Shown here one piece after another: positions 21,834 through 37,143 of a stretch of 37,143 nucleotides of DNA. Source of the stretch: Rubrivivax sp. GTDB lineage: Bacteria > Pseudomonadota > Gammaproteobacteria > Burkholderiales > Burkholderiaceae_C. Position 1 is the first letter of the stretch. Each line of letters starts with the position of its first letter. Under the pieces are notes generated by a model. That model was not told the origin of the DNA, did not search any database, and was given only the letters and a program-made list of their open reading frames with translations. A program made the translations under genes and the position numbers. The stretch is taken from positions 1-37,143 of the forward strand of contig JAIYCN010000268.1 in NCBI GenBank assembly GCA_027487995.1. Reading direction: 5' to 3'.

Positions 21834-22853
21834 TCAGTCGACCTTGGCGCCGGAAGCCTTCACCACCGCGGCCCACTTGCGGGTCTCGGCTTCGATGTGC
21901 TTGGCGAACTCGGCACTGGTGATGCCGCTGGGGATGGCGCCTTGCGCCTGCAGCCGCTCCTTCAACGCCGGCGTGCCCATGGCCTTGGCGGCTTCCTGCT
22001 GGATGCGGTTGACGATGTCCATGGGCGTACCGGCGGGGGCCAACAGGCCGAACCAGCTGGAGGCCTCATAGCCCTTCAATGTGGGGCCGCCCGCCTCCTC
22101 AACCGTGGGCACGTCGGGCAGGGCCGAGGACCGCACCGCGCTGGTGACGGCCAGCGCCTTGAGCTTGCCGCTGCGAATATGTGGCATGGAGGAGGGCAGG
22201 TTGTCGAACATCAGGTCCATGTTGCCGCCCATCAGGTCGATGAGAGCCGGGCCAGAGCCGCGGTAGGGGAAGTGGACCATGAAGGTGCCGGTCATGCTCT
22301 TGAAGAGTTCACCGGCCAGGTGGATGGAGGTGCCGTTGCCCGAGCTGGCCATGTTCAGCTTGCCGGGGTTGGCCTTGGCGTAGCGGATGAGGTCGGCCAC
22401 GCTGTTGATGTTGTGGCGTTGGGCCAGGGCCGGGTTGATGACCAGCACGTTGGGCACACCGGCCACCAGGGTCACGGGCACGAAGTCCTTGATGGGGTCA
22501 TAGGGCAGCTTGGGATAGAGCGAGGCGTTGATCCCGTGCGTGCCCACGGTGCCCATCAGCAGGTGGTGGCCGTCGTTGGCGGACTTCGCCACGTCGGCCG
22601 AACCGACGTTGCCGCCGGCGCCGGGCTTGTTCTCCACCACGAAGGGCTGGCCGAACACGCGCTGAAGTTCGGGCGCCATGGCGCGGGCCAGGATGTCCGT
22701 GGTGCCGGCCGCGGGGAAGGGGACGACGATGCGCACGGCTTTGCTGGGCCAGGCGGCTTGCGCGTGGGCACCTTGGCCCAGGGGCAGCATGGTAGACAGG
22801 GGCAGGGCAGCGGCAGCCAGCAGGAGGCGGCGGCGTGGGGTGGTGTTCTTCAT
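21834..22853 (-). CDS. Bug/TctC-family substrate-binding protein (A)
   Basis: This is a 339-residue periplasmic binding protein of the tripartite tricarboxylate transporter type. The signal region [14 protein letters not shown] is followed by the mature start [18 protein letters not shown]. The family blocks [15 protein letters not shown], the Y[11 protein letters not shown] segment, [40 protein letters not shown] and [11 protein letters not shown] are present. The ATG at 22853 has GGAGA 8 nt upstream; the frame is open further upstream but that part lacks signal-peptide character. It is followed after 13 bp by the M14 peptidase gene. Ligands of this family range over carboxylates, amino acids and aromatic acids and cannot be fixed here. 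No TctA or TctB gene is nearby. Confidence 0.88.
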
Positions 22854-23010
22854 GGGGGTCTCCGGCAGCGTTGGACATGCAAGCGAAGCAGCGCTCTGTG
22901 GGATGGGGTGGCGCCTGTTGCGAGTGTGCCCCAACAGGCAGGGCAAGCCCGGGTTGCAGGGTCTTGATCCGGGGACGATCCTCACGGGGTTTTCACTGAA
23001 GGAGCAGCAG
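22854..23010. promoter_or_regulatory. Divergent promoter region between Bug-type genes A and B, with inverted repeat
   Basis: This 157 bp gap contains a perfect 8 bp inverted repeat, GCCTGTTG (22913-22920) and CAACAGGC (22932-22939), separated by 11 bases. A dyad of this size roughly midway between divergent genes is a plausible operator for a regulator of both transcripts. TTGCAG-N17-GATCCT (22954-22982) is a weak candidate promoter for gene B. No regulator gene lies next to it in the window. Confidence 0.45.
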
Positions 23011-23982: not shown

Positions 23983-23995
23983 TGCGGGAGACGTG

Positions 23996-25021
23996 ATGAT
24001 GACTGGATGCTTGGTTGGAGCGTGGCGGCGCCGTGGCTTGTTGGGCCTGGGAATGGGTTTGGGCTTGAGCCTGGTTGTCGGTCTGCTGGCAGCACCGACA
24101 TCGGTACAGGCACAGTCAGCCTGGCCCACGGGCAAGCCGATTCGCTTTGTGGTGCCGTTTGCGGCCGGCAGTGCCACCGACCAAGTGGCGCGGGCCTTCG
24201 GGCAGAAGGTGGCGGAAAGCCTCGGGGCCACGGTGGTGGTGGAAAACCGCCCCGGGGCCAACGGCATGCTGGGTGCAGCCGAAGTGGCGAAGGCCGCGCC
24301 CGATGGCTACACGCTGCTGATCGGCACCAACAGCACGAATGCGGCGTTGAAATCCCTGGTGAAGAACCTGCCCTATGACCAGGACACGGCCTTTGCGCCG
24401 GTGGCCTATCTGGGGCAGGTGCCCTTGATCGTGGCGGTGAACAACGAGGTGCCGGTGAAGACGCTGCGCGAACTGGTGGACCTGGCCAAGGGCAAGCCGG
24501 CCGGCCACATCACCTTTGCCAGCGCCAGCACCTCGCAGTTGGTGTCTTCAGAAATGCTGGCCAGCATGGCGGGCATCAAGATGACGAACATTCCGTTCAA
24601 GAGCGGGCCTGATGCGATGACCAATCTGATTGGTGGGCAGGTGATGATGTTCACGGCGGACTTCGCGGTGACGGTGCCGCAGGTGCGCGCGGGTAAGATT
24701 CGCGGCTTGGCCGTGACGTCAACGAAGCGGTCGGCTGCCGTGCCGGACCTGCCCACGGTCAATGAGGCCTTGGGGATGAAGGACTATGAGCTCATCGCCT
24801 ACTTCGCTGCGTTTGCGCCGGCGGGTACGCCTGCGGATTTGATCCAGAGACTGAACACGGCCTTCAATGCGGGGGCTGCCGCGCGCGATGTGCAGGAGCG
24901 CTTCGCGAACATCGGCTTCATCACCGACCCTGGGCCTCCTTCCGCACTGGCTGAACGCACGAAGGTGGAGACGGCGAAGTGGGCGAAGGTGATTCGGGAC
25001 GCGAAGATCGAGATTCAGTGA
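23996..25021 (+). CDS. Bug/TctC-family substrate-binding protein (C)
   Basis: This is a 341-residue periplasmic binding protein with a long signal peptide (GAWRRRGLLGLGMGLGLSL to SVQAQ). Mature-part blocks are KPIRFVVPFAAGSATDQVAR, NRPGANGMLGAAEVAKAAP, NLPYDQDTAFAPVAYLG, IPFKSGPDAMTNLIGGQVM, AGKIRGLAVTSTKRS and PDLPTVNEALG. The start at 23996 is one of two adjacent ATGs; GGGAG lies 5-6 nt upstream, and a GTG at 23993 is also possible. The gene is second in the B-C pair and converges on the DUF3047-type gene, 43 bp away. No cognate membrane components are in the window. Confidence 0.88.
   Translation: MMTGCLVGAWRRRGLLGLGMGLGLSLVVGLLAAPTSVQAQSAWPTGKPIRFVVPFAAGSATDQVARAFGQKVAESLGATVVVENRPGANGMLGAAEVAKAAPDGYTLLIGTNSTNAALKSLVKNLPYDQDTAFAPVAYLGQVPLIVAVNNEVPVKTLRELVDLAKGKPAGHITFASASTSQLVSSEMLASMAGIKMTNIPFKSGPDAMTNLIGGQVMMFTADFAVTVPQVRAGKIRGLAVTSTKRSAAVPDLPTVNEALGMKDYELIAYFAAFAPAGTPADLIQRLNTAFNAGAAARDVQERFANIGFITDPGPPSALAERTKVETAKWAKVIRDAKIEIQ

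Positions 25022-26559: not shown

Positions 26560-26561
<2 letters not shown>
26529..26561. repeat. 33 bp palindrome-containing repeat, copy 3
   Basis: This copy is identical to copy 1 over 33 bp apart from the central base (T at 26549 instead of A). The 21 bp palindrome is at 26539-26559, and its end touches the stop codon of the twin ATPase gene (26562-26560). It is 730 bp from copy 1 in direct orientation and 48 bp centre to centre from copy 2. On the minus strand it follows the transporter operon and could act as its terminator. Confidence 0.85.
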
Positions 26562-28271
<1,710 letters not shown>

Positions 28272-28272
<1 letters not shown>

Positions 28273-29330
28273 TATTCGAGCCCCCGCAGCTTGGGGTCCA
28301 GTGCGTCGCGCGCGGCGTCGGCCATCAGCGAGAAGGCGGTGACGAACACGCACATGAAGGCCGTGGCCGCCACGAGCTGCCACCAGTAGCCCAGGATCAG
28401 TTCCGCCTGCGCTTCGGACAGCATCGTGCCCCAGGACACGTCGTCGATTCCAACGCCCAGGCCCAGGTAGGACAGGATCACTTCGCTCTTGATGAAGCCC
28501 ACCACCAGCAGGCCCATGCGCACCAGGATGACGTGCGAGACGTTGGGCAGGATGTGCTTGAACATGCGCGCGAAGGATGAAGCACCGATGGCCTCGGCCG
28601 AGCGCACGTATTCGCGCGAGCGGTGCTTCATGAATTCGGCGCGTACCTGGCGGTACAGACCCGTCCAGCCGGTGAGGCCCAGGATGAGCACCACCGTGCC
28701 GATGCCGCGGCCGAACACGGCCGCGAAGGCGAAGATCAGCAGGATGCCCGGCACGGCCTCGAAGACGTTGTAGAGCCACTCGAAGAAGTCGCCCACCTTG
28801 CCGCCGAGGTAGCCCGACAGGGCGCCCAACAGCGTGCCCAGGAAGGTGGCCACCACGGCAGCCAGCACGCCCACGAACACGGAGATTTCCGTGCCCTTGA
28901 TGGCCTTGGACAGCACGTCGCGGCCCAGTCGGTCGCCGCCCAGGGGCAGGGTCTCGGCCTTCACGGTTTCGGCGGTGGCGTAGGCCTTGGACTTCTCCGC
29001 CCACTCGGCGTACTTCGGCGCCAGCGGGTCGATGGCCGAGATGTCCACGTTCGGGCCCTTGGGCTGTTCGATCACACCAGTGGCTTCGGGCGGCGCGGGG
29101 CCCAGGAAGGTGGGCGGCGCATTGGGCACGCCCACTTCCTTCTGCCAATCCTTGGCCACCAGGTTGAGCGCGGACGCCGCGATCAGCACCAGGAACAGCA
29201 GCACGATGACCAGGGACACCATGCCCACACGGTCGGCCTTGTAGCGGCGCCAGGCCGCGGCCCACACACCCTCGGAGCGCTCGGGCCCCACGCTGGCACC
29301 TTGGCCCGATGAAGTCAGGACTGCGCTCAT
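28272..29330 (-). CDS. Peptide-type ABC transporter permease (DppC/YejE-like)
   Basis: This is a 352-residue membrane subunit. A cytoplasmic N-terminus with RRYKADRVGMVSLVIVLL leads into the first membrane segment, followed by a periplasmic loop of about 85 residues, then GGDRLGRDVLSKAIKGTEIS and the remaining five segments. The long loop is typical of YejE-like rather than short DppC proteins. The ATPase-contact (EAA-type) loop is visible as YVRSAEAIGASSFARMFKHILPN. It overlaps the ATPase gene by 1 bp and the upstream permease gene by 4 bp. The C-terminus ends DALDPKLRG, the standard family ending. Confidence 0.93.
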
Positions 29331-30265
29331 TTCAGCACCACCCGCGGGTCAATGGCCTTGTACATCACGTCGGTGAGCAGGTTGATCACCATGGTCAGCA
29401 TCGCCAGATACACGGTGATGGCCTGGATGACGGGGTAGTCCGACCGGTTCACCGCCAGCAGCACCTCGCGGCCCAGGCCGGGAATGGAGAAGAAGGTTTC
29501 GATGAGGAAGGAGCCGATGAACACGCTGGGCAGGGCCAGGCCGATGTTCGTGATGATCGGGATCATCGCGTTGCGCATGACGTGCTTGAACAGCACCTTG
29601 TTCTCCGTGAGGCCCTTGGCGCGGGCGGTGCGCACGTAGTCCTGACCCAGTTCATCCAGGAAGAAGCTGCGGTACAGGCGCGTCTGCGGGCTGATGCCCA
29701 CCATCACCGCCAACAGCACCGGCAGCGGCGCGTAGGTGATGAGGTTCTTCCAGGTGCTGTCCGTCCAGCCCTGCACCGGGAACCAGCCCAGCACGAAGCC
29801 GAAGAAGTACTGGCCCACGATGATGTAGACCAGGAAGGAGATGGACAGCGCCACCGTCGTGATCACCATGATGGTGCGGTCGGTGAGCGACCCGCGCTTG
29901 TAGGCCACCCACATGGCAATGGGCAGGGCCAGCAGCACATCCAGGATGAGGATGGGCAGCATCACCGTGAGCGTGGCGGGCAGCCGCGTGGCGAACAGGT
30001 TGCTCACCGCTTCGTTTGTGGCCCAGCTCTTGCCGAAGTCGAAGGTGGCGATCGACTTGATGAAGATCCAGAACTGGACCCAGGCCGGCTCGTTGAGGCC
30101 GAGCTGCTGCCGGATGGCGTCGATCTGCTCGGGCGTGGCGTTCAGGCCGCCGAGGATTTCCGCGGGGTCACCGCCGAAGTACTTGAAGAGGATGAACACC
30201 AGCAGCACCACGCCCAACAGGGTCGGGATCATTTGCCACAGGCGCCGGATGAGGTAGGCCAGCAT
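29327..30265 (-). CDS. Peptide-type ABC transporter permease (DppB/YejB-like)
   Basis: This is a 312-residue membrane subunit starting MLAYLIRRLWQMIPTLLGVV, the typical beginning of this family. A periplasmic part with DPAEILGG and TPEQIDAIRQQLGLNEP is followed by the membrane domain, with the EAA-type loop YVRTARAKGLTENKVLFKHV and the ending AIDPRVVLK. The ATG at 30265 was chosen on homology, with GGAG 10 nt upstream; the frame is open further upstream but enters the promoter region. It is the first gene of the permease-permease-ATPase operon and is divergent from three binding-protein genes. Confidence 0.92.
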   Translation of the reverse strand: MLAYLIRRLWQMIPTLLGVVLLVFILFKYFGGDPAEILGGLNATPEQIDAIRQQLGLNEPAWVQFWIFIKSIATFDFGKSWATNEAVSNLFATRLPATLTVMLPILILDVLLALPIAMWVAYKRGSLTDRTIMVITTVALSISFLVYIIVGQYFFGFVLGWFPVQGWTDSTWKNLITYAPLPVLLAVMVGISPQTRLYRSFFLDELGQDYVRTARAKGLTENKVLFKHVMRNAMIPIITNIGLALPSVFIGSFLIETFFSIPGLGREVLLAVNRSDYPVIQAITVYLAMLTMVINLLTDVMYKAIDPRVVLK

Positions 30266-30566
30266 CGATTGCACACTCCAGAGAAGGGCACGCGGCGGCA
30301 GAGCTTGTGGCTTCCGGCGCCGCGGGCTGTCCCGACGTTTTTCGGGATGCGCGAGTCTAGCGGCCTCGGGACCACTTGGCCCCGGGCGTTTTCCCCTCGT
30401 TTCCCCCCGGGTTTGAAGGGGATTGAGCCCGAAACCCGCGTAAATGCGGTGTGCAGGGGGACTTCCAGGGTTCTCCCGCAGGCGCCGCACCGCTAGACTG
30501 CGCGCTCTGTTTTCGCCTGCACCAAACCCGGTGGCCCACGAAGCCAGCCGGGTGCAGCTTCAAATC
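30266..30566. promoter_or_regulatory. Divergent promoter region of the peptide-type ABC system
   Basis: This 301 bp gap has no credible gene. It contains two divergent copies of the decamer CCGCTAGACT: one on the plus strand at 30490-30499, 67 bp before the first binding-protein gene, and one on the minus strand at 30363-30354, 88 bp before the permease gene. TAGACT would be the -10 in each; no good -35 is seen. A small stem-loop, TCCCGA-N6-TCGGGA, lies at 30330-30347 in the leader of the permease transcript. The matching elements suggest that one sigma factor or regulator serves both transcripts. Confidence 0.5.
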
Positions 30567-32480
30567 ATGATGCGTTCGAACCTTGTGACGGTTGCCGGCC
30601 AGCGGCCCTTTCCTTCGCTTCTATCCTGGGGCCTGGGCCTGACCCTGGCGGCCTGCGTCGGCTCGATGGGCAGCGCCCTGCCCGCGATGGCCCAAAGTGG
30701 CCCGGCTGCTACTGCCGCGCCCAAAACGCTGCGCTATGCCTTCCCGATTGCCGAGACCGGCTTTGATCCGGCGCAGATTTCGGACGCCTACTCGCGCATC
30801 ATCGCGGCCAACATGTTCGAGTCGCCGCTGACCTACGACCCGCTGGCGCGCCCGGCCAAGGTGGTGCCGCAGACCGCGGCGGCGCTTCCGGAGATCAGCG
30901 ACAACTTCACCCGCTTCGTGTTCCGCATCAAGCCGGGCATCCTGTTTGCCGACGATCCGGCCTTCAAGGGCAGCAAGCGGCTCAATGCCCAGGGCAAGCG
31001 TGAACTGACGGCCGAGGACTACGTCTACACCGTCAAGCGCCACTACGACCCCAAGACCAAGAGCCCCAGCCTCTTCCAACTGGAAAACGCCCGCATCCTG
31101 GGGCTGTCGGAGTTGCGCAAGAAGACGATTGCCGAGAAGAAGCCCTTCAACTACGACACCGAGGTGGAGGGCATCCGCGCGTTGGACCGCTACACCTTTG
31201 AGGTGCGCCTGGCCAGCCCTGCGCCGCGTTTTTATTACACCTTCACCGACGGTGGCGTGATGGGCGCGGTGGCGCGCGAAGTGGCCGAGACCTACGGCGA
31301 CAAGATCATGGAGCACCCGGTGGGCACGGGCCCGTACCGCCTGGCCGCCTGGAAGCGTTCATCGAAGATCACGCTGGAGCGCAACCCCAACTACCGCGAG
31401 CGCTACTACGAAGCCGATCCGGCGCCCGATGATGCCGAAGGGCAGGCCATGCTGGCGCGCCTGAAGGGCAAGCGAATTCCCATGGTGGACCGGGTGGAGG
31501 TGAGCATCGTGGAGGAGACGCAGCCGCGTTGGCTGGCCTTCCTCAACGGTGAGCACGACATGATCGAGCGCCTGCCCAACGAGTTCGCCACCAGCGCCAT
31601 CCCCAACAACAAGCTGGCGCCCAATCTGCGCAAGAAGGGCATCCAGATGCAGCGCATGCCTGCGGTGGATGCCACGCTGAGCTACTTCGGAATGGAGAAC
31701 CCGGTGGTGGGCGGCTATGAGCCGCACAAGGTGGCGCTGCGCCGCGCGATTTCGCTGGCCTATGACGTGGAGCAGGAAATCAACCAGGTGCGCAAGGGCC
31801 AGGCCATTCCGGCCCAGGCCATCATCCCGCCCATGCTCACCGGCTTCGACCCGCAATTGAAGACCGAGATGAGCGACCACGACCTGGCGCGCGCGCGGGC
31901 CTTGCTGGACCTTTACGGCTATGTGGACAAGGACGGTGATGGATGGCGCGACCTGCCCGACGGCAAGCCGCTGCTGCTTGAGTATTCCAGCCAGCCCGAC
32001 CAGGCTTCGCGCCAGCTGCAGGAACTGTGGCGCAAGGCCATGAAGGCCATCGACATCCGCATGGAATTCAAGATTGCCAAGTGGCCCGAGCAGCTCAAGG
32101 CCAGCCGCGCGGGCAAGCTGATGATGTGGGGCGTGGCCTGGAGCGCGACCAACCCCGACGGCAGCTACTTCCTGGACCTGCTCTACGGGCCCAACAAGGG
32201 TCAGGCCAACCATTCGCGCTTTGACCTGCCGGCCTTCAACGAACTCTACAAGCAGCAGTTCGTGATGCCCGACGGCCCGCAGCGCGAGGCGCTGATGAAG
32301 GACGCCAAGCTGCTGGCCGTGGCCTACATGCCGTACAAGGTCACAGGCCACCGCATCATCACCGACCTCATGCACCCGCATGTGGTGGGCTACCGGCGCC
32401 ACCCCTTCATGCGGGACTTCTGGCGCTATGTGGATATCGACCACGCGGGGTCGGCACAGGTGGTGGCGGCTGCGCGATGA
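30567..32480 (+). CDS. Family 5 extracellular solute-binding protein (1 of 3)
   Basis: This 637-residue binding protein is of the peptide/nickel type (SBP_bac_5), longer than DppA and near YejA in size. The signal region has two readings: Sec cleavage after ALPAMA, or a lipobox LAAC with Cys30. Mature landmarks are ETGFDPAQISDAYSR, IKPGILFADDPAFKGSKRL, ELTAEDYVYTVKRHYDP, HPVGTGPYRLAAWKR, MVDRVEVSIVEETQPRWLAF and DKDGDGWRDLPDGKPL. The start is the first of two adjacent ATGs at 30567; upstream open frame is rejected because it lies in the promoter region. It overlaps the second copy by 4 bp. The ligand is probably a peptide or peptide-like compound, inferred from the family and the divergent importer. 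Confidence 0.88.
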   Translation: MMRSNLVTVAGQRPFPSLLSWGLGLTLAACVGSMGSALPAMAQSGPAATAAPKTLRYAFPIAETGFDPAQISDAYSRIIAANMFESPLTYDPLARPAKVVPQTAAALPEISDNFTRFVFRIKPGILFADDPAFKGSKRLNAQGKRELTAEDYVYTVKRHYDPKTKSPSLFQLENARILGLSELRKKTIAEKKPFNYDTEVEGIRALDRYTFEVRLASPAPRFYYTFTDGGVMGAVAREVAETYGDKIMEHPVGTGPYRLAAWKRSSKITLERNPNYRERYYEADPAPDDAEGQAMLARLKGKRIPMVDRVEVSIVEETQPRWLAFLNGEHDMIERLPNEFATSAIPNNKLAPNLRKKGIQMQRMPAVDATLSYFGMENPVVGGYEPHKVALRRAISLAYDVEQEINQVRKGQAIPAQAIIPPMLTGFDPQLKTEMSDHDLARARALLDLYGYVDKDGDGWRDLPDGKPLLLEYSSQPDQASRQLQELWRKAMKAIDIRMEFKIAKWPEQLKASRAGKLMMWGVAWSATNPDGSYFLDLLYGPNKGQANHSRFDLPAFNELYKQQFVMPDGPQREALMKDAKLLAVAYMPYKVTGHRIITDLMHPHVVGYRRHPFMRDFWRYVDIDHAGSAQVVAAAR

Positions 32481-34372
32481 AAGTGGATGGGTTGGGCCTG
32501 GTGCGTGGCGCGCTGCGCGTTGGGGTGGCTGCGGCGGCCGTGCTGGCGTTTGCTGCGGGGACTGCACAGGCGCAAGGTGGAACTGCAGCGGCTTCGCCCG
32601 ACGCCGCCAAACCGCAGGCCGCGGCTGCGCAAAAGGTGCTGCGCATTTCGTTTCCCACCGCCGAGACGGGCTTCGACCCCGCACAGGTCAACGACCTGTA
32701 TTCGCGCACGGTCACGCCGCACATCTTCGAAGGGCTGTACCAGTACGACCATCTGGCGCGCCCGGCCAAGATCCGGCCGCTGACGGCTGACGGCATGCCA
32801 CAGGTGTCGGATGACTTCCGCACCTGGACGGTGAAGATCAAGCCGGGCATCTACTTCATGGACGACCCGGCCTTCAAGGGCAGCAAGCGGTTGGATGCCC
32901 AAGGCCGGCGGGAACTGACCGCGGCCGATTACGTCTTCAGCTACAAGCGCTTTGCCGACCCGGTGAACAAGAGCCCGGTGTGGGGCGGCATGCTCGATAC
33001 GGGCTATGTGGGCCTGGAGGCCTTGCGCAAGAAGGCGTTGGAAACCAAGAAGCCGTTCGACTACGACACCGAGATCGACGGCATCCGCGCACTGGACCGC
33101 TACACCATCCAGTTCAAGACCATCAAGCCGCGGCCCACGCTGATCGAGACCTTTGCCACCGGCGACCTGTTTGGCGCGGTGGCGCGCGAGGTGGTGGAGC
33201 ACTACGGCGACAAGATCATGGCCCACCCGGTGGGCACGGGGCCCTTCAAGCTGGTGCAGTGGCGGCGTTCAAGCTTCATTGTCTTGGAGCGCAACCCGCA
33301 GTACCGCGAGGTGGTCTACGACTTCGAGCCTGCGGCTGATGACGCCGCTGGACAGGCCCTGCTGGCCCAGTTCAAGGGCCGGCGCCTGCCCATGGTGGAC
33401 CGGGTGGAGGTCAGCATCATCGAGGAGACGCAGCCGCGTTGGCTGGCCTTCCTCAATGGGCAACTGGATTGGCTGACGGTGCCGGGCGAATTCGTGAGCC
33501 AGGCGATGCCCAACGGCAAGCTGGCACCGAACCTGGCCAAGCGCGGAATCCAGGGTTTTCGCTCGCTGAACTCGGATTCGGCCTACCTCTACTTCAACAT
33601 GGAAGACCCAGTGGTGGGCGGCTACACAGCCGAGCGCGTGGCCCTGCGCCGCGCCATCAGCCTGGCCATGGACGTGGACCGCGAGATTCGTCTGATTCGC
33701 CGCGGGCAGGCCATCCCGGCGCAGTCGGCCCTGGTACCCAACACCACGGGTTATGACCCGCAGTACAAGAGCGAGATGAGTGCCTATGACCCCGCGCGGG
33801 CCAAGGCACTGTTGGACCTCTACGGCTATGTGGACAAGAACGGCGACGGATGGCGCGAGCAGCCCGATGGCAAGCCGCTGGTGCTGGAGATGGCCACGCA
33901 GCCCGACCAACTGTCGCGGCAGTTCAATGAGCTCAACAAGCGCAACTTCGAGGCCATTGGGGTGCAGGTGAAGTTCAATGTGGGCAAGTGGCCCGAGCAG
34001 CTCAAGGCGGCCCGCGCGGCCAAGCTGCAGATGTGGATGCTGGGTGGCTCGGCCGCCGCGCCCGATGGGCAGCAGTCGTTGGCGCGCTTCTACAGCCCGC
34101 AGTTCGGTGCGCAGAACTTCGCCCGCTTCAAGAACGAGGAGTTCGACCGCCTGTACGAGCGCATGGGCGAGATTCCGGATGGGCCCGAACGCGAAGCGCT
34201 CTTCCTGCAGGCCAAGAACATCGGCATGGCCTACATGCCCTACAAGTTCCTGGTGCACCGCATTTCCAGCGACCTCACACAGCCCCGCTTGCTGGGCTTC
34301 AGGCGCACACAGTTCTGGCAGGACTGGTGGCACCGGGTGGACATCGCGCCGGAGCGGCAGACCGAGCGGTGA
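32477..34372 (+). CDS. Family 5 extracellular solute-binding protein (2 of 3)
   Basis: This 631-residue paralogue of the first copy has a clear Sec signal peptide (LRVGVAAAAVLAFAAGTAQA). The same blocks recur: ETGFDPAQVNDLYSR, IKPGIYFMDDPAFKGSKRL, ELTAADYVFSYKRFADP, AREVVEHYGDKIMAHPVGTG, MVDRVEVSIIEETQPRWLAF, VGGYTAERVALRRAISLA and DKNGDGWREQPDGKPL. It begins inside the stop of copy 1 (ATGA) and ends inside the GTGA start of copy 3, so all three should be translated from one message. Differences cluster in the ligand-facing parts, for example FRSLNSDSAYLYFNME in place of MQRMPAVDATLSYFGME, which suggests different specificity. Confidence 0.9.
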   Translation: MKVDGLGLVRGALRVGVAAAAVLAFAAGTAQAQGGTAAASPDAAKPQAAAAQKVLRISFPTAETGFDPAQVNDLYSRTVTPHIFEGLYQYDHLARPAKIRPLTADGMPQVSDDFRTWTVKIKPGIYFMDDPAFKGSKRLDAQGRRELTAADYVFSYKRFADPVNKSPVWGGMLDTGYVGLEALRKKALETKKPFDYDTEIDGIRALDRYTIQFKTIKPRPTLIETFATGDLFGAVAREVVEHYGDKIMAHPVGTGPFKLVQWRRSSFIVLERNPQYREVVYDFEPAADDAAGQALLAQFKGRRLPMVDRVEVSIIEETQPRWLAFLNGQLDWLTVPGEFVSQAMPNGKLAPNLAKRGIQGFRSLNSDSAYLYFNMEDPVVGGYTAERVALRRAISLAMDVDREIRLIRRGQAIPAQSALVPNTTGYDPQYKSEMSAYDPARAKALLDLYGYVDKNGDGWREQPDGKPLVLEMATQPDQLSRQFNELNKRNFEAIGVQVKFNVGKWPEQLKAARAAKLQMWMLGGSAAAPDGQQSLARFYSPQFGAQNFARFKNEEFDRLYERMGEIPDGPEREALFLQAKNIGMAYMPYKFLVHRISSDLTQPRLLGFRRTQFWQDWWHRVDIAPERQTER

Positions 34373-36231
34373 AGCGCCGCGCCTTCATCGGCACGGCGGC
34401 TGCGGCGGTGGGGGCCGCCGCGGTGGCGGGTGGCTCGCCAGTGGCGGTGGGTGCTTCAAGCAAGGCTGAGCCCTACTCGTCCAAAGGCACGCGCACCCCG
34501 GCCAAGGAGAAGGTGCTGCGCATCGCCTTTCCGGCGCCCGAAAGCACCTTCGACCCGCCTTCGACGAACAGCGACTTCTACTCGTCCACGATCCTGTCGC
34601 AGATCCTGGAAGCACCGCTGACCTACGACTACCTGGCGCGTCCGGCACGCCTGGTGCCCAACACCGCGCAGGACCTGCCGCAGATTGAGGATGGTGGGCG
34701 GCGCATCACGCTGCGCATCAAGCCGGGCATCTACTTTGCGGATGATCCGGCCTTCAAGGGCAGCAAGCGCTTGGATGCCCAAGGCCGCCGTGAACTCACG
34801 GCCGAAGACTATGTGTATTCGATCAAGCGCTTTTACGACCCGCGTTATGCATCGAGCGACCTGTATGTGTTCGAAGGCGCCAAGCTGCTGGGCCTGAGCG
34901 AAGTGCGCCAGCGCGCGCTGAAAGAGAAGAAGCCCTTCGACTACGACGCGCCGGTGGAGGGCGTGAAGGCCCTGGACCGCTACACGCTGCAGCTTCGCTT
35001 GGGCGACCCGGACCCGCGTTGGCATTTCAACCTGGCGCTGCCGGCCATCACCGGTGCCGTGGCGCGCGAGGTGGTGGAGCACTACGGCAACGACATTGGT
35101 GCGCACCCGGTGGGGACCGGCCCCTTCAGGCTGGCGCAGTGGCGCCGCGCCTCGCGCATCGTGCTGGAACGCTCATCGAACTACCGGCGGCGCGTGTACG
35201 AAGGCACGCCCGCGGACGAGCCGATTGCGCAGTCGATTGCCGCTCAACTTCAGGGCAAGGCCCTGCCCTTGGTGGACCGCATCGTGGTGGACATCGTGGA
35301 GGAGGCGCAGCCGCGCTGGTTGTCCTTCCTGCAGGGCGATTTCGATTGGATGGCGGTGCCTGCGACCTTCACGCCGCTGGCGGTGCCGGGCGGGCAGTTG
35401 GCGCCTTTCCTGCGCAAGAAGGGCGTGCAGCTGCAAACCGAACTGCAGGCCGTGATGGCCATGCACTACTTCTCCATGGAAGACCCGGTGGTGGGGGGCT
35501 ACACGCCGGACAAGGTGGCCCTGCGCCGCGCCATCGCCCTGGCCTACGACGAGCCGGCCGACATTCGGCTGCTGCGCCACGGCATGGCCATTCCGGCGCA
35601 GTCCACGATCACGCCCCACACCTTCGGCTATGAAGAGGACTACCGCAGCGACATGTCCGCGCATGACCCTGCGCGGGCCAAGGCCCTGCTGGATGTCTAT
35701 GGCTACACCGACCGCAATGGCGATGGTTGGCGCGAGATGCCGGATGGCAAGCCGCTGGTGCTGCGCATCGCGTCTCTGGCTTCGCAGGAAGACCGCGCGG
35801 CCAACGAGCTGTGGAAACGATCGCTCAATGCGGTGGGCGTGAAGGTGGAGTTCGATGTGTCCACCTGGCCGGAGTTGCTGAAGAAGACGCGCACCGGGGG
35901 TCTGCAGATCTGGGGCTTTCGCTGGAGCGCAGGCTCGCCCGATGGCGGCTTCTTCCTGTCGATTGCCTATGGGCCGAATGCGGGGGACTCCAACGACCCG
36001 CGCTTTGCATTGCCAGCCTTTGATCGGGTCTACGAGGAGCAGCGGCGCCTGCCCGACGGACCGCAGCGCCTGGCGCTGATGCGGCAAGCCAAGGATCTGC
36101 TGGTGGCCTACATGCCCTACAAGGTGCACCGCCACGACATCGTGCCGGTGCTGCTGCAACCGTGGTTGCGGCACTACTGGCTGCACCCCTTCATGCGCGA
36201 CACGTGGCAGTATCTGGACACGGTGCGTTGA
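34369..36231 (+). CDS. Family 5 extracellular solute-binding protein with Tat-like signal (3 of 3)
   Basis: This is the third paralogue, 620 residues from a GTG at 34369 that overlaps the previous stop (GTGA). Its N-terminus, KRRAFIGTAAAAVGAAAVAGG, fits a twin-arginine (Tat) signal, unlike the first two copies. Shared blocks are APESTFDPPSTNSDFYSS, IKPGIYFADDPAFKGSKRL, ELTAEDYVYSIKRFYDP, HPVGTGPFRLAQWRRASRI, VGGYTPDKVALRRAIALA and DRNGDGWREMPDGKPL. The frame is open upstream within copy 2, but that part is not coding for this protein. Tat export would mean folding in the cytoplasm, perhaps with a bound ligand or cofactor; this is inference. The acetoacetyl-CoA synthetase-like gene follows 35 bp downstream. 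Confidence 0.88.
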   Translation: MKRRAFIGTAAAAVGAAAVAGGSPVAVGASSKAEPYSSKGTRTPAKEKVLRIAFPAPESTFDPPSTNSDFYSSTILSQILEAPLTYDYLARPARLVPNTAQDLPQIEDGGRRITLRIKPGIYFADDPAFKGSKRLDAQGRRELTAEDYVYSIKRFYDPRYASSDLYVFEGAKLLGLSEVRQRALKEKKPFDYDAPVEGVKALDRYTLQLRLGDPDPRWHFNLALPAITGAVAREVVEHYGNDIGAHPVGTGPFRLAQWRRASRIVLERSSNYRRRVYEGTPADEPIAQSIAAQLQGKALPLVDRIVVDIVEEAQPRWLSFLQGDFDWMAVPATFTPLAVPGGQLAPFLRKKGVQLQTELQAVMAMHYFSMEDPVVGGYTPDKVALRRAIALAYDEPADIRLLRHGMAIPAQSTITPHTFGYEEDYRSDMSAHDPARAKALLDVYGYTDRNGDGWREMPDGKPLVLRIASLASQEDRAANELWKRSLNAVGVKVEFDVSTWPELLKKTRTGGLQIWGFRWSAGSPDGGFFLSIAYGPNAGDSNDPRFALPAFDRVYEEQRRLPDGPQRLALMRQAKDLLVAYMPYKVHRHDIVPVLLQPWLRHYWLHPFMRDTWQYLDTVR

Positions 36232-36266: not shown

Positions 36267-37143
36267 ATGAACCTCTACCCCTCGCTCCCACGCCCGCAGA
36301 TGGCCCGCTACACCGACTGGCTGCGCCAGCATCGCGGGCTTCAGTTCGACACCTATGAGGCCTTGTGGCAATGGTCGGTGAGCGACCTCGAAGCCTTTTG
36401 GATGTCGATCTGGGACTACTTCGACGTGCAATCGGAGACACCACCCACGCGGGCGCTTGCGCACGAGGCGATGCCCGGAGCGCAGTGGTTTCCGGGTGTG
36501 CGGTTGAACTTCACCGCACAGGTGCTGCGCCATGCTGCGGCCGCCCAGGCTGCCGGGCACCCGGCGCTGGTGTACGCCAACGAGGCGATGTTGAGGCAGG
36601 GCCAGGTGGGTGAGTTGGCGTGGGGCGAACTGCAGCAACAAGTGGCCACCGTGGCGGCGCATCTGCGCGCGCAGGGTGTTCAGCCGGGCGACCGTGTGTG
36701 TGCCGTGCTGCCACATGTGCCCGAGACCATCGTGCTGTTCCTGGCCACGGCGGCCATTGGCGCGGTGTGGAGCTTGTGTTCGCCAGACATGGGGCCGGTG
36801 GCCATCCTCGACCGCTTTCGGCAGATTGAACCCGTGGTGCTGGTGATGGCCGAGGGCTACACCTGGGGCGGGGTTGAGCATGACCGCCGCGCCTTGCGTG
36901 AGGAAGTGATGGCCGGCTTGCCATCGGTGCGCGTGGCCATGGGCCTGCAGGATTTGAAGCGCGTGGCCACGGACCCTGAGCGTGATGCCGCAACTGAAGG
37001 CTTCAAGCCCCTGCCCGTGGCCTTCGACCATCCGCTGTGGATCGTGTATTCCAGCGGCACCACCGGTCTGCCCAAGCCCATCGTGCACGGCCACGGCGGC
37101 ATCATGCTGGAGATGCTCAAGGGCGGGGCGCTGCACAACAACA
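36267..37143 (+). CDS. Acetoacetyl-CoA synthetase-like ANL ligase (C-terminus cut by window edge)
   Basis: The frame is open from the ATG at 36267 to the window end, giving 292 residues of a protein that should be about 650. AAGGAG lies 10 nt upstream. The N-terminal block RYTDWLRQHRG, the linker FWMSIWDYFDV and FPGVRLNFTAQVLRH match acetoacetyl-CoA synthetases and their relatives. The adenylate-forming P-loop YSSGTTGLPKPIVHGHGG falls near residue 260. The enzyme would activate acetoacetate (or a similar short acid) with ATP and CoA. With 35 bp to the binding-protein gene, co-transcription is possible. Substrate identity is uncertain because the rest of the protein is missing. Confidence 0.85.
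   Translation, partial: MNLYPSLPRPQMARYTDWLRQHRGLQFDTYEALWQWSVSDLEAFWMSIWDYFDVQSETPPTRALAHEAMPGAQWFPGVRLNFTAQVLRHAAAAQAAGHPALVYANEAMLRQGQVGELAWGELQQQVATVAAHLRAQGVQPGDRVCAVLPHVPETIVLFLATAAIGAVWSLCSPDMGPVAILDRFRQIEPVVLVMAEGYTWGGVEHDRRALREEVMAGLPSVRVAMGLQDLKRVATDPERDAATEGFKPLPVAFDHPLWIVYSSGTTGLPKPIVHGHGGIMLEMLKGGALHNN

Follow-up and report, generated by a model that had tools for sequence, protein, structure and literature searches.

The window, a 37,143-nucleotide stretch of the Rubrivivax sp. contig JAIYCN010000268.1, contains three consecutive genes for family-5 solute-binding proteins (copies 1 to 3) and, divergent from them, the genes of one ATP-binding cassette (ABC) importer. An earlier note, made from the sequence alone, had described three family-5 proteins that overlap by 4 bp and share near-identical blocks, in an array divergent from a single permease-permease-ATPase operon. 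All of this is borne out. The copies lie head to tail with each stop codon overlapping the next start by four bases, every copy scores 203–224 bits against PF00496 (cut-off 32.4), and the permease and ATPase genes occupy the minus strand (Table 1). Copy 1 shares 56% identity with copy 2 and 52% with copy 3, and the blocks DPAFKGSKRL and GDGWR are invariant in all three, so the resemblance reflects homology and not chance. Structures were predicted for copy 1 and for copy 3. The copy 3 model (predicted local distance difference test score, pLDDT, 91.6) has the OppA/DppA fold, with GbpA (3m8u) at Z 36.1 and 1dpp at Z 34.6 in a fold search, and the solved structures nearest to it are mostly peptide binders: GbpA, DppA and OppA.

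Both permeases match PF00528 and the ATPase carries two PF00005 stretches in one fused protein, the composition of a peptide/opine/nickel (PepT) importer. No NCBIfam model reached its cut-off for the binding proteins or permeases, while the fused ATPase passed several single-ATPase models (PRK11308, NikD, NikE, CntD and CntF) that disagree with one another (dipeptide, nickel, staphylopine). Because the cut-offs are either unmet or discordant, no curated name fits the system. Membership of YejABEF was considered and rejected, the scores falling below cut-off for YejB (136.7 against 445 bits), YejE (112.2 against 439) and YejF (545.7 against 834). In its own genome permease B is found once at 100%, the next best match being 36%, alongside three binding proteins of the array kind. 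A promoter scan of the stretch between the two operons found no sigma-70-like site.

Table 1. Position and characteristics of the genes and features at the importer locus
Feature	Position	Strand	Remarks
Binding protein copy 1, family 5, 637 aa	30567..32480	+	PF00496 match; Thr528 in place of the amino-binding Asp
Binding protein copy 2, 631 aa	32477..34372	+	Signal Sec-like; Ala527 in place of the amino-binding Asp; overlaps copy 1 by ATGA
Binding protein copy 3, 620 aa	34369..36231	+	Starts with GTG; overlaps copy 2 by GTGA; Gly522 in place of the amino-binding Asp
Copy 3 Tat-type signal region	34369..34455 (end approximate)	+	KRRAFIG motif, mild hydrophobic stretch
Permease B	29327..30265	-	ATG at 30265, start inferred; PF00528
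Permease C	28272..29330	-	PF00528
Fused ATPase, two ABC domains in one chain	26560..28272	-	Two PF00005 stretches; start inferred
Intergenic stretch between divergent operons	30266..30566	.	Promoter scan negative
Acetoacetate--CoA ligase gene, cut by window end	36267..37143	+	NCBIfam, partial match

Arrays facing one transporter are widespread in the family

To place the window among its relatives, we scanned GTDB genomes and obtained 202 matching stretches, 147 of which encode a relative; the best 80 were kept and gave 78 loci, or 79 with the window. Matches of at least the 1e-100 level occurred in 110 of 299 genomes of the family and in 79 of 399 genomes drawn from the order, own-family genomes included. 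Transporter genes and copies were counted as open reading frames (ORFs) above 250 bits, a count in which a split gene registers twice (L016), and copy numbers per genome are lower bounds, with at most four candidates scored in each. Dropping 7 incomplete rows out of 229 binding-protein rows left 222 complete copies.

Several binding proteins beside one transporter set is the arrangement found. The set is complete once in 59 of the 79 loci, partial in 11, absent from nine and nowhere present twice, which, as a comparison between loci, supports the earlier proposal that one importer would serve the array. Eight of the nine loci without a transporter begin at most 0.6 kb from a fragment edge, and three carry a cut permease B there. 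Permease B is divergent from the binding proteins in all 70 loci that have it. The number of copies was counted in the 60 loci with room after the array, including the window although only 912 bases follow its array: 12 loci have one copy, 10 have two, 17 have three, 13 have four, six have five and two have six. Arrays of up to seven copies appeared among 11 new loci, which remained from 20 further regions picked among genomes with multiple matches once nine that repeat the first set were left out. The gap between copies has a median of -4, and the 4-bp overlap recurs in 72 of 146 cases. Opposite a single transporter, arrays of one to seven copies thus occur widely in the family; the window shows one instance of an expandable array that is found throughout the family. 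One family genome also holds a binding-protein match with a single in-frame TGA (G053:C22:53329-55095).

The copies separated before their near relatives did

Trees were built from the mature part only of the 222 complete copies. Window copies 1 and 2 group with copies 1 and copies 2, respectively, of loci L004–L006, and copy 3 groups with copy 3 of L006, each with a support of 100; a mixture-model tree of 67 rows agrees with this grouping by position. When the three window copies were constrained to one clade, the approximately unbiased (AU) test rejected the arrangement (p 7.7e-6, at a cost of 1058 log-likelihood units), and a clade of copies 1 and 2 gave p 1.5e-5 at a cost of 685 units. Compared with their L004 counterparts over the mature part, copy 1 is 93% and copy 2 is 92% identical, whereas the two share only 56% identity with each other. 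In a rooted tree, which omits L141 (for which there is no signal call either) and L146 (a member of the window's own family), the first split within the family array separates the copy-3 clade, with a support of 99, from the other copies. Judged from these trees, the duplication that separated copy 3 is old, and perhaps the oldest of all.

The earlier note had read the three genes as a local triplication and named a phylogeny as its check. The copies turned out to be distant, having split long before the near relatives did, and the trees and AU tests together lead us to reject that reading. Tandem order, 4-bp overlaps and shared blocks are what a recent triplication would leave behind; nevertheless, it is contradicted by the trees and rejected by the AU tests under the model used, and copies 1 and 2 match their L004 counterparts far better than each other. 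We give it next to no credence.

Copy 3 carries a conserved Tat-type signal

The earlier note assigned signals of the general secretion (Sec) type to copies 1 and 2 and one of the twin-arginine translocation (Tat) type to copy 3. The signal of copy 2 is indeed Sec-like, and that of copy 3, VKRRAFIGTAAAAVG, is Tat-like. Copy 1 has no twin arginine (RR) at its signal and reads RS where near relatives read RR. Its start can be read with RR-x-[LIT] in all four near relatives (L004–L007, L007 being an incomplete row), which makes the Sec label for window copy 1 less certain. The assignment therefore holds for copies 2 and 3 and is weakened for copy 1. Copy 1 may switch export route from one near relative to another. 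Its signal region (30567-30700, plus strand) also contains a lipobox-like LTLAAC around Cys30, besides a Sec-type AMA-Q site.

The copy-3 clade consists of 30 rows from 30 loci, all of them last in the array as far as the fragments reach (the L008 fragment ends 225 bases after its member). All 30 have RR and all 30 have the strict Tat motif, defined as RR-x-[FLMVIW]-[LIMVFAT] near the start. Elsewhere the strict motif occurs in 13 of 59 rows of the first-copy clade and in 15 of 71 and 0 of 28 rows of the two parts of the copy-2 clade. The signal core of the copy-3 clade has a median hydrophobicity of 1.74 versus 2.34 for the 59 first-copy rows and is less hydrophobic than that of copy 1 of the same array in 27 of the 30 loci; after the core, Lys and Arg average 1.27 versus 0.36. 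Nine of the 11 new loci hold a copy-3 clade member, in last place in 9/9 and with the strict motif in 9/9, and the motif is present in 14 of 51 other copies of these loci. The remaining two are L187, which ends with an RR copy outside the clade, and L189, which has neither an RR-bearing last copy nor a clade member. TatC was found in the own genome (G000 C252, 226 bits). Among the comparison families of the same order, L143 has three Tat-like copies; the other called signals are Sec-like and two rows are ambiguous. In a 28-row clade of middle copies (for example, L017 copies 3-5) the RR is mostly of the RRxTL type and uniform within the clade.

By our own rule, copy 3 bears the sequence marks of a Tat substrate: the strict motif, a mild core, and conservation of both in its orthologues. 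The earlier call of a Tat-type signal is thus upheld. As far as sequence can tell, copy 3 is an old lineage with a fixed last place and a strictly kept Tat-type signal, and the evidence speaks against its export without Tat.

Cofactor loading is the classical reason for export by Tat, and the earlier note had suggested it for copy 3. We find no cysteine in copy 3, the sole cysteine of the three copies being C30 in the signal region of copy 1. Cys or His columns peculiar to the copy-3 clade were looked for and none was found; no Cys column is conserved in the clade and 10 of its 30 members lack Cys in the mature part altogether. Besides the classical rationale, a cofactor or metal would be in keeping with a fold family that takes in NikA and haem- or glutathione-binding proteins, and Cys in the mature part is commoner in the copy-3 clade (20/30) than in other copies (56/192). 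However, the conserved His columns of the clade are found in other clades too, as with H606 (His in 29/30 members and in 33/192 others). Because copy 3 lacks Cys and its clade has neither a conserved Cys nor a peculiar His column, we consider a cofactor very unlikely as the reason for Tat and did not retain the suggestion.

Other columns do set the clade apart. L503 (29/30 versus 2/192), F528 (28/30 versus 0/192) and D543 (30/30 versus 0/192) all lie within about 21 residues of column 522, the amino-binding position, and further columns of its own are D242, F168, S541 and one Gly column at which copy 3 itself has S531. We infer that copy 3 folds before export, with a changed pocket accompanying this; such early folding appears plausible from the sequence.

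The amino-binding Asp and the permease scoop

Escherichia coli DppABCDF shares the fold and the transporter class of the window system, and DppB matches permease B at 3.1e-50. According to the excerpted text of PMC12136057, DppA binds the dipeptide through its amino group by D436 and through its carboxyl group by R383, and E41/R42 in the scoop loop of DppB pair with D436 and R383. The D436 column holds Thr528, Ala527 and Gly522 in copies 1, 2 and 3, so that none of the copies has the amino-binding Asp of DppA and OppA. Across the family, Asp stands at this column in 14 of 222 copies, versus 20 of 28 copies in 17 comparison loci from other families. The latter count omits L151 and L152, which share the divergent layout, and L165, which belongs to the window's own family; with their seven rows, none of which has Asp, it becomes 20 of 35. 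The R383 column was also compared, but it is not clearly Arg in the comparison loci and falls at an alignment gap, and we make no claim on it.

The permease changes at the matching site. Where DppB has E41, permease B of the window has Leu (Leu90 of P0004, codon 30143-30145). Lys occupies this scoop position in 13 of the 17 comparison loci, and all 13 have at least one copy with Asp, versus 13 of the 73 loci without the scoop Lys. In 14 of the 17 comparison loci with a permease all genes run in one direction. In three loci from other families of the order (L148, L156 and L157), an M3-family peptidase gene lies between the binding protein and permease B. The comparison loci seem, by sequence, closer to ordinary peptide importers, and in the window's family a change of binding mode seems to have gone along with changes in the permease and in the operon layout. 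With the Asp lost and the scoop changed, the ligands of the array are probably not bound like ordinary free-amino peptides.

The neighbouring acetoacetate-CoA ligase gene

The gene that starts about 36 nt after copy 3 on the same strand was named acetoacetate-CoA ligase by NCBIfam from the half within the window, which scores below the full-length cut-off because the gene is cut. A ligase gene lies at most 300 nt downstream on the same strand in 25 of the 65 loci with more than 900 nt after the array; L069, with 810 nt after its array, has one as well, and 22 of these 26 lie within 60 nt. Among these 65 loci, 19 of the 28 that have a copy-3 clade member carry the ligase gene versus 6 of the 37 that lack one, a comparison not corrected for kinship, and all six full-length genes tested exceed the TIGR01217 cut-off. 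The other 40 of the 65 loci have no ligase there, although two of them (L014 and L047) have a ligase gene 2.8-3.4 kb further on, and none was found in the 20 comparison loci (13-20 kb each). The ligase gene, which lies beyond the span described in the earlier note, may belong to the array operon, and the adjacency may hint at what becomes of the ligand or may be inherited order. Uptake of polyester oligomers was considered and set aside, the own genome (83% complete) giving no match to the polyester-esterase family PF10503; 3-hydroxybutyrate dehydrogenase is over its cut-off there but is common and not telling. Other conserved neighbours are weak: none occurs in more than 13 of 79 loci, and some are antisense ORFs. 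Downstream of the ligase, ten ORFs, taken from stop to stop and possibly spurious, gave Pfam matches to an aconitase and to M13 and M48 peptidases in single loci, and seven had no match.

Interpretation

Taken together, we put at about two in three the probability that the locus encodes a PepT importer whose one permease pair and fused ATPase are shared by a divergent, coupled array of binding proteins with a Tat-routed copy 3. The binding proteins would be made as one translationally coupled array, and each copy would close on its own set of ligands and hand them to the common permease, the permease pair and ATPase accepting cargo from several of them. A wider ligand range from several copies is plausible on this sequence pattern. 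The tree shows that the copies stem from old duplications within the family, after which the array grew and shrank by further tandem duplication. The copy 3 lineage has kept its signal and its last place; it would have been re-routed early to Tat, probably because copy 3 folds before export. The alignment further shows that the array lost the amino-holding Asp, with few exceptions, and that the scoop loop of the permease changed alongside.

Several observations weigh against this interpretation. The early branching of the copy-3 clade depends on a sister branch supported at 94, not starred, and the outgroup, drawn from other families of the order, is not one clade in the rooted tree. Not every copy sits beside a permease, since L040 (9755-11794, plus strand) is a lone copy with no transporter in the 9.7 kb before it or the 3.6 kb after it. 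Among the loci with more than 2.5 kb after a multi-copy array, 26 of 47 have a copy-3 clade member and 21 do not. The signal classes come from our own rules, set after seeing the sequences, and not from a dedicated predictor; the Tat rule also picks out 8 of the 59 first-copy rows, the signals of 17 of these 59 and of 29 of 71 others contain an RR pair, and a second clade labelled Tat fails the strict motif in 28 of 28 rows. The Sec/Tat split between the copies is leaky as well, because the rule missed the RR that can be read at the start of copy 1 in the near relatives. Finally, 14 family copies keep Asp beside a permease without Lys, and the link between Asp and scoop amounts to one main split of the tree and one further, independent locus (L164), which leaves it suggestive only. 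The lone binding protein of L040 comes from the same bin as L039.

An ordinary peptide importer would account for much of the same material: redundant copies would widen the peptide range, as in Borrelia Opp, loss of the Asp would shift the binding mode, and the Tat signal would be a neutral relic. The peptide-binding proteins nearest to copy 3 in structure (GbpA, DppA and OppA) and the M3 peptidase gene inside three comparison loci fit this account, as do the five OppA proteins that share one Opp transporter in the excerpt of PMC6719511 and the Tat-like ABC binding proteins of Rhizobium and haloarchaea in that of PMC3305326. A neutral relic, though, is unlikely to be kept in 30/30 and again in 9/9 members while other clades change label (24-25 changes of the Tat label on the tree under our own label rule), and most of the array has lost the Asp; we regard this account as possible but unlikely.

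It is also conceivable that the importer feeds a pathway ending in acetoacetate, the array taking up oligomers or conjugates that yield acetoacetate for activation by the adjoining ligase. The close spacing of array and ligase, its bias towards loci with copy 3, the TIGR01217 matches and an Asp loss that suits non-peptide ligands point this way. Most loci have no ligase there, the comparison loci have none, the own genome lacks a PF10503 match, and the adjacency may be inherited order only, so that we think this rather doubtful. A bolder combination would have both the Asp and the scoop charge shed for a non-peptide, acetoacetate-linked cargo, with the last copy folded in the cytoplasm, perhaps loaded with ligand, and exported by Tat to report or recycle ligand from inside while its siblings scavenge outside. 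This we hold to be quite improbable.

The coupled array with a Tat-type member and a probably shared importer is a variation on known importers with several binding proteins, not a new kind of system. Borrelia burgdorferi Opp, as described in the excerpt of PMC6719511, likewise has several family-5 binding proteins (five OppA) serving one ABC peptide importer; that text mentions no Tat signal, whereas in the window all copies are encoded in a single array that ends with a Tat-type member. In Brucella yejA1-yejA2-yejB-yejE-yejF, too, paralogous binding proteins encoded in tandem accompany a single permease pair and a single ATPase (YejF), but in the account excerpted from PMC4994006 these genes form one operon, whereas the window has divergent operons and does not reach the YejB, YejE and YejF cut-offs. 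Tat-like signals on ABC binding proteins, the oligopeptide type included, are known from alpha-proteobacteria and haloarchaea, and the excerpt of PMC3305326 gives COG4166 as predicted to be Tat-dependent in 5/10 alpha-proteobacteria. What differs in the window is that the Tat type is a single, fixed component of an array in which Sec-like signals are more frequent among the remaining copies. Among the matches listed from open-access titles and abstracts, none dealt with this array or with a Tat member in a set sharing an importer.

Binding proteins that share an importer are already known; the Tat-type member raises the question why one of them should be exported folded. Since this member can be recognised as an orthologous lineage that keeps its place in arrays of three to seven copies, the question can be tested by comparing siblings with different predicted export routes and, probably, a common permease. 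The joint change of Asp and scoop offers a concrete hypothesis for how the specificities of receptor and permease change together.

Other genes near the importer

Two TctC-type receptors (PF03401) are encoded near the importer on opposite strands, at 23990-25018 (plus) and 21834-22985 (minus).

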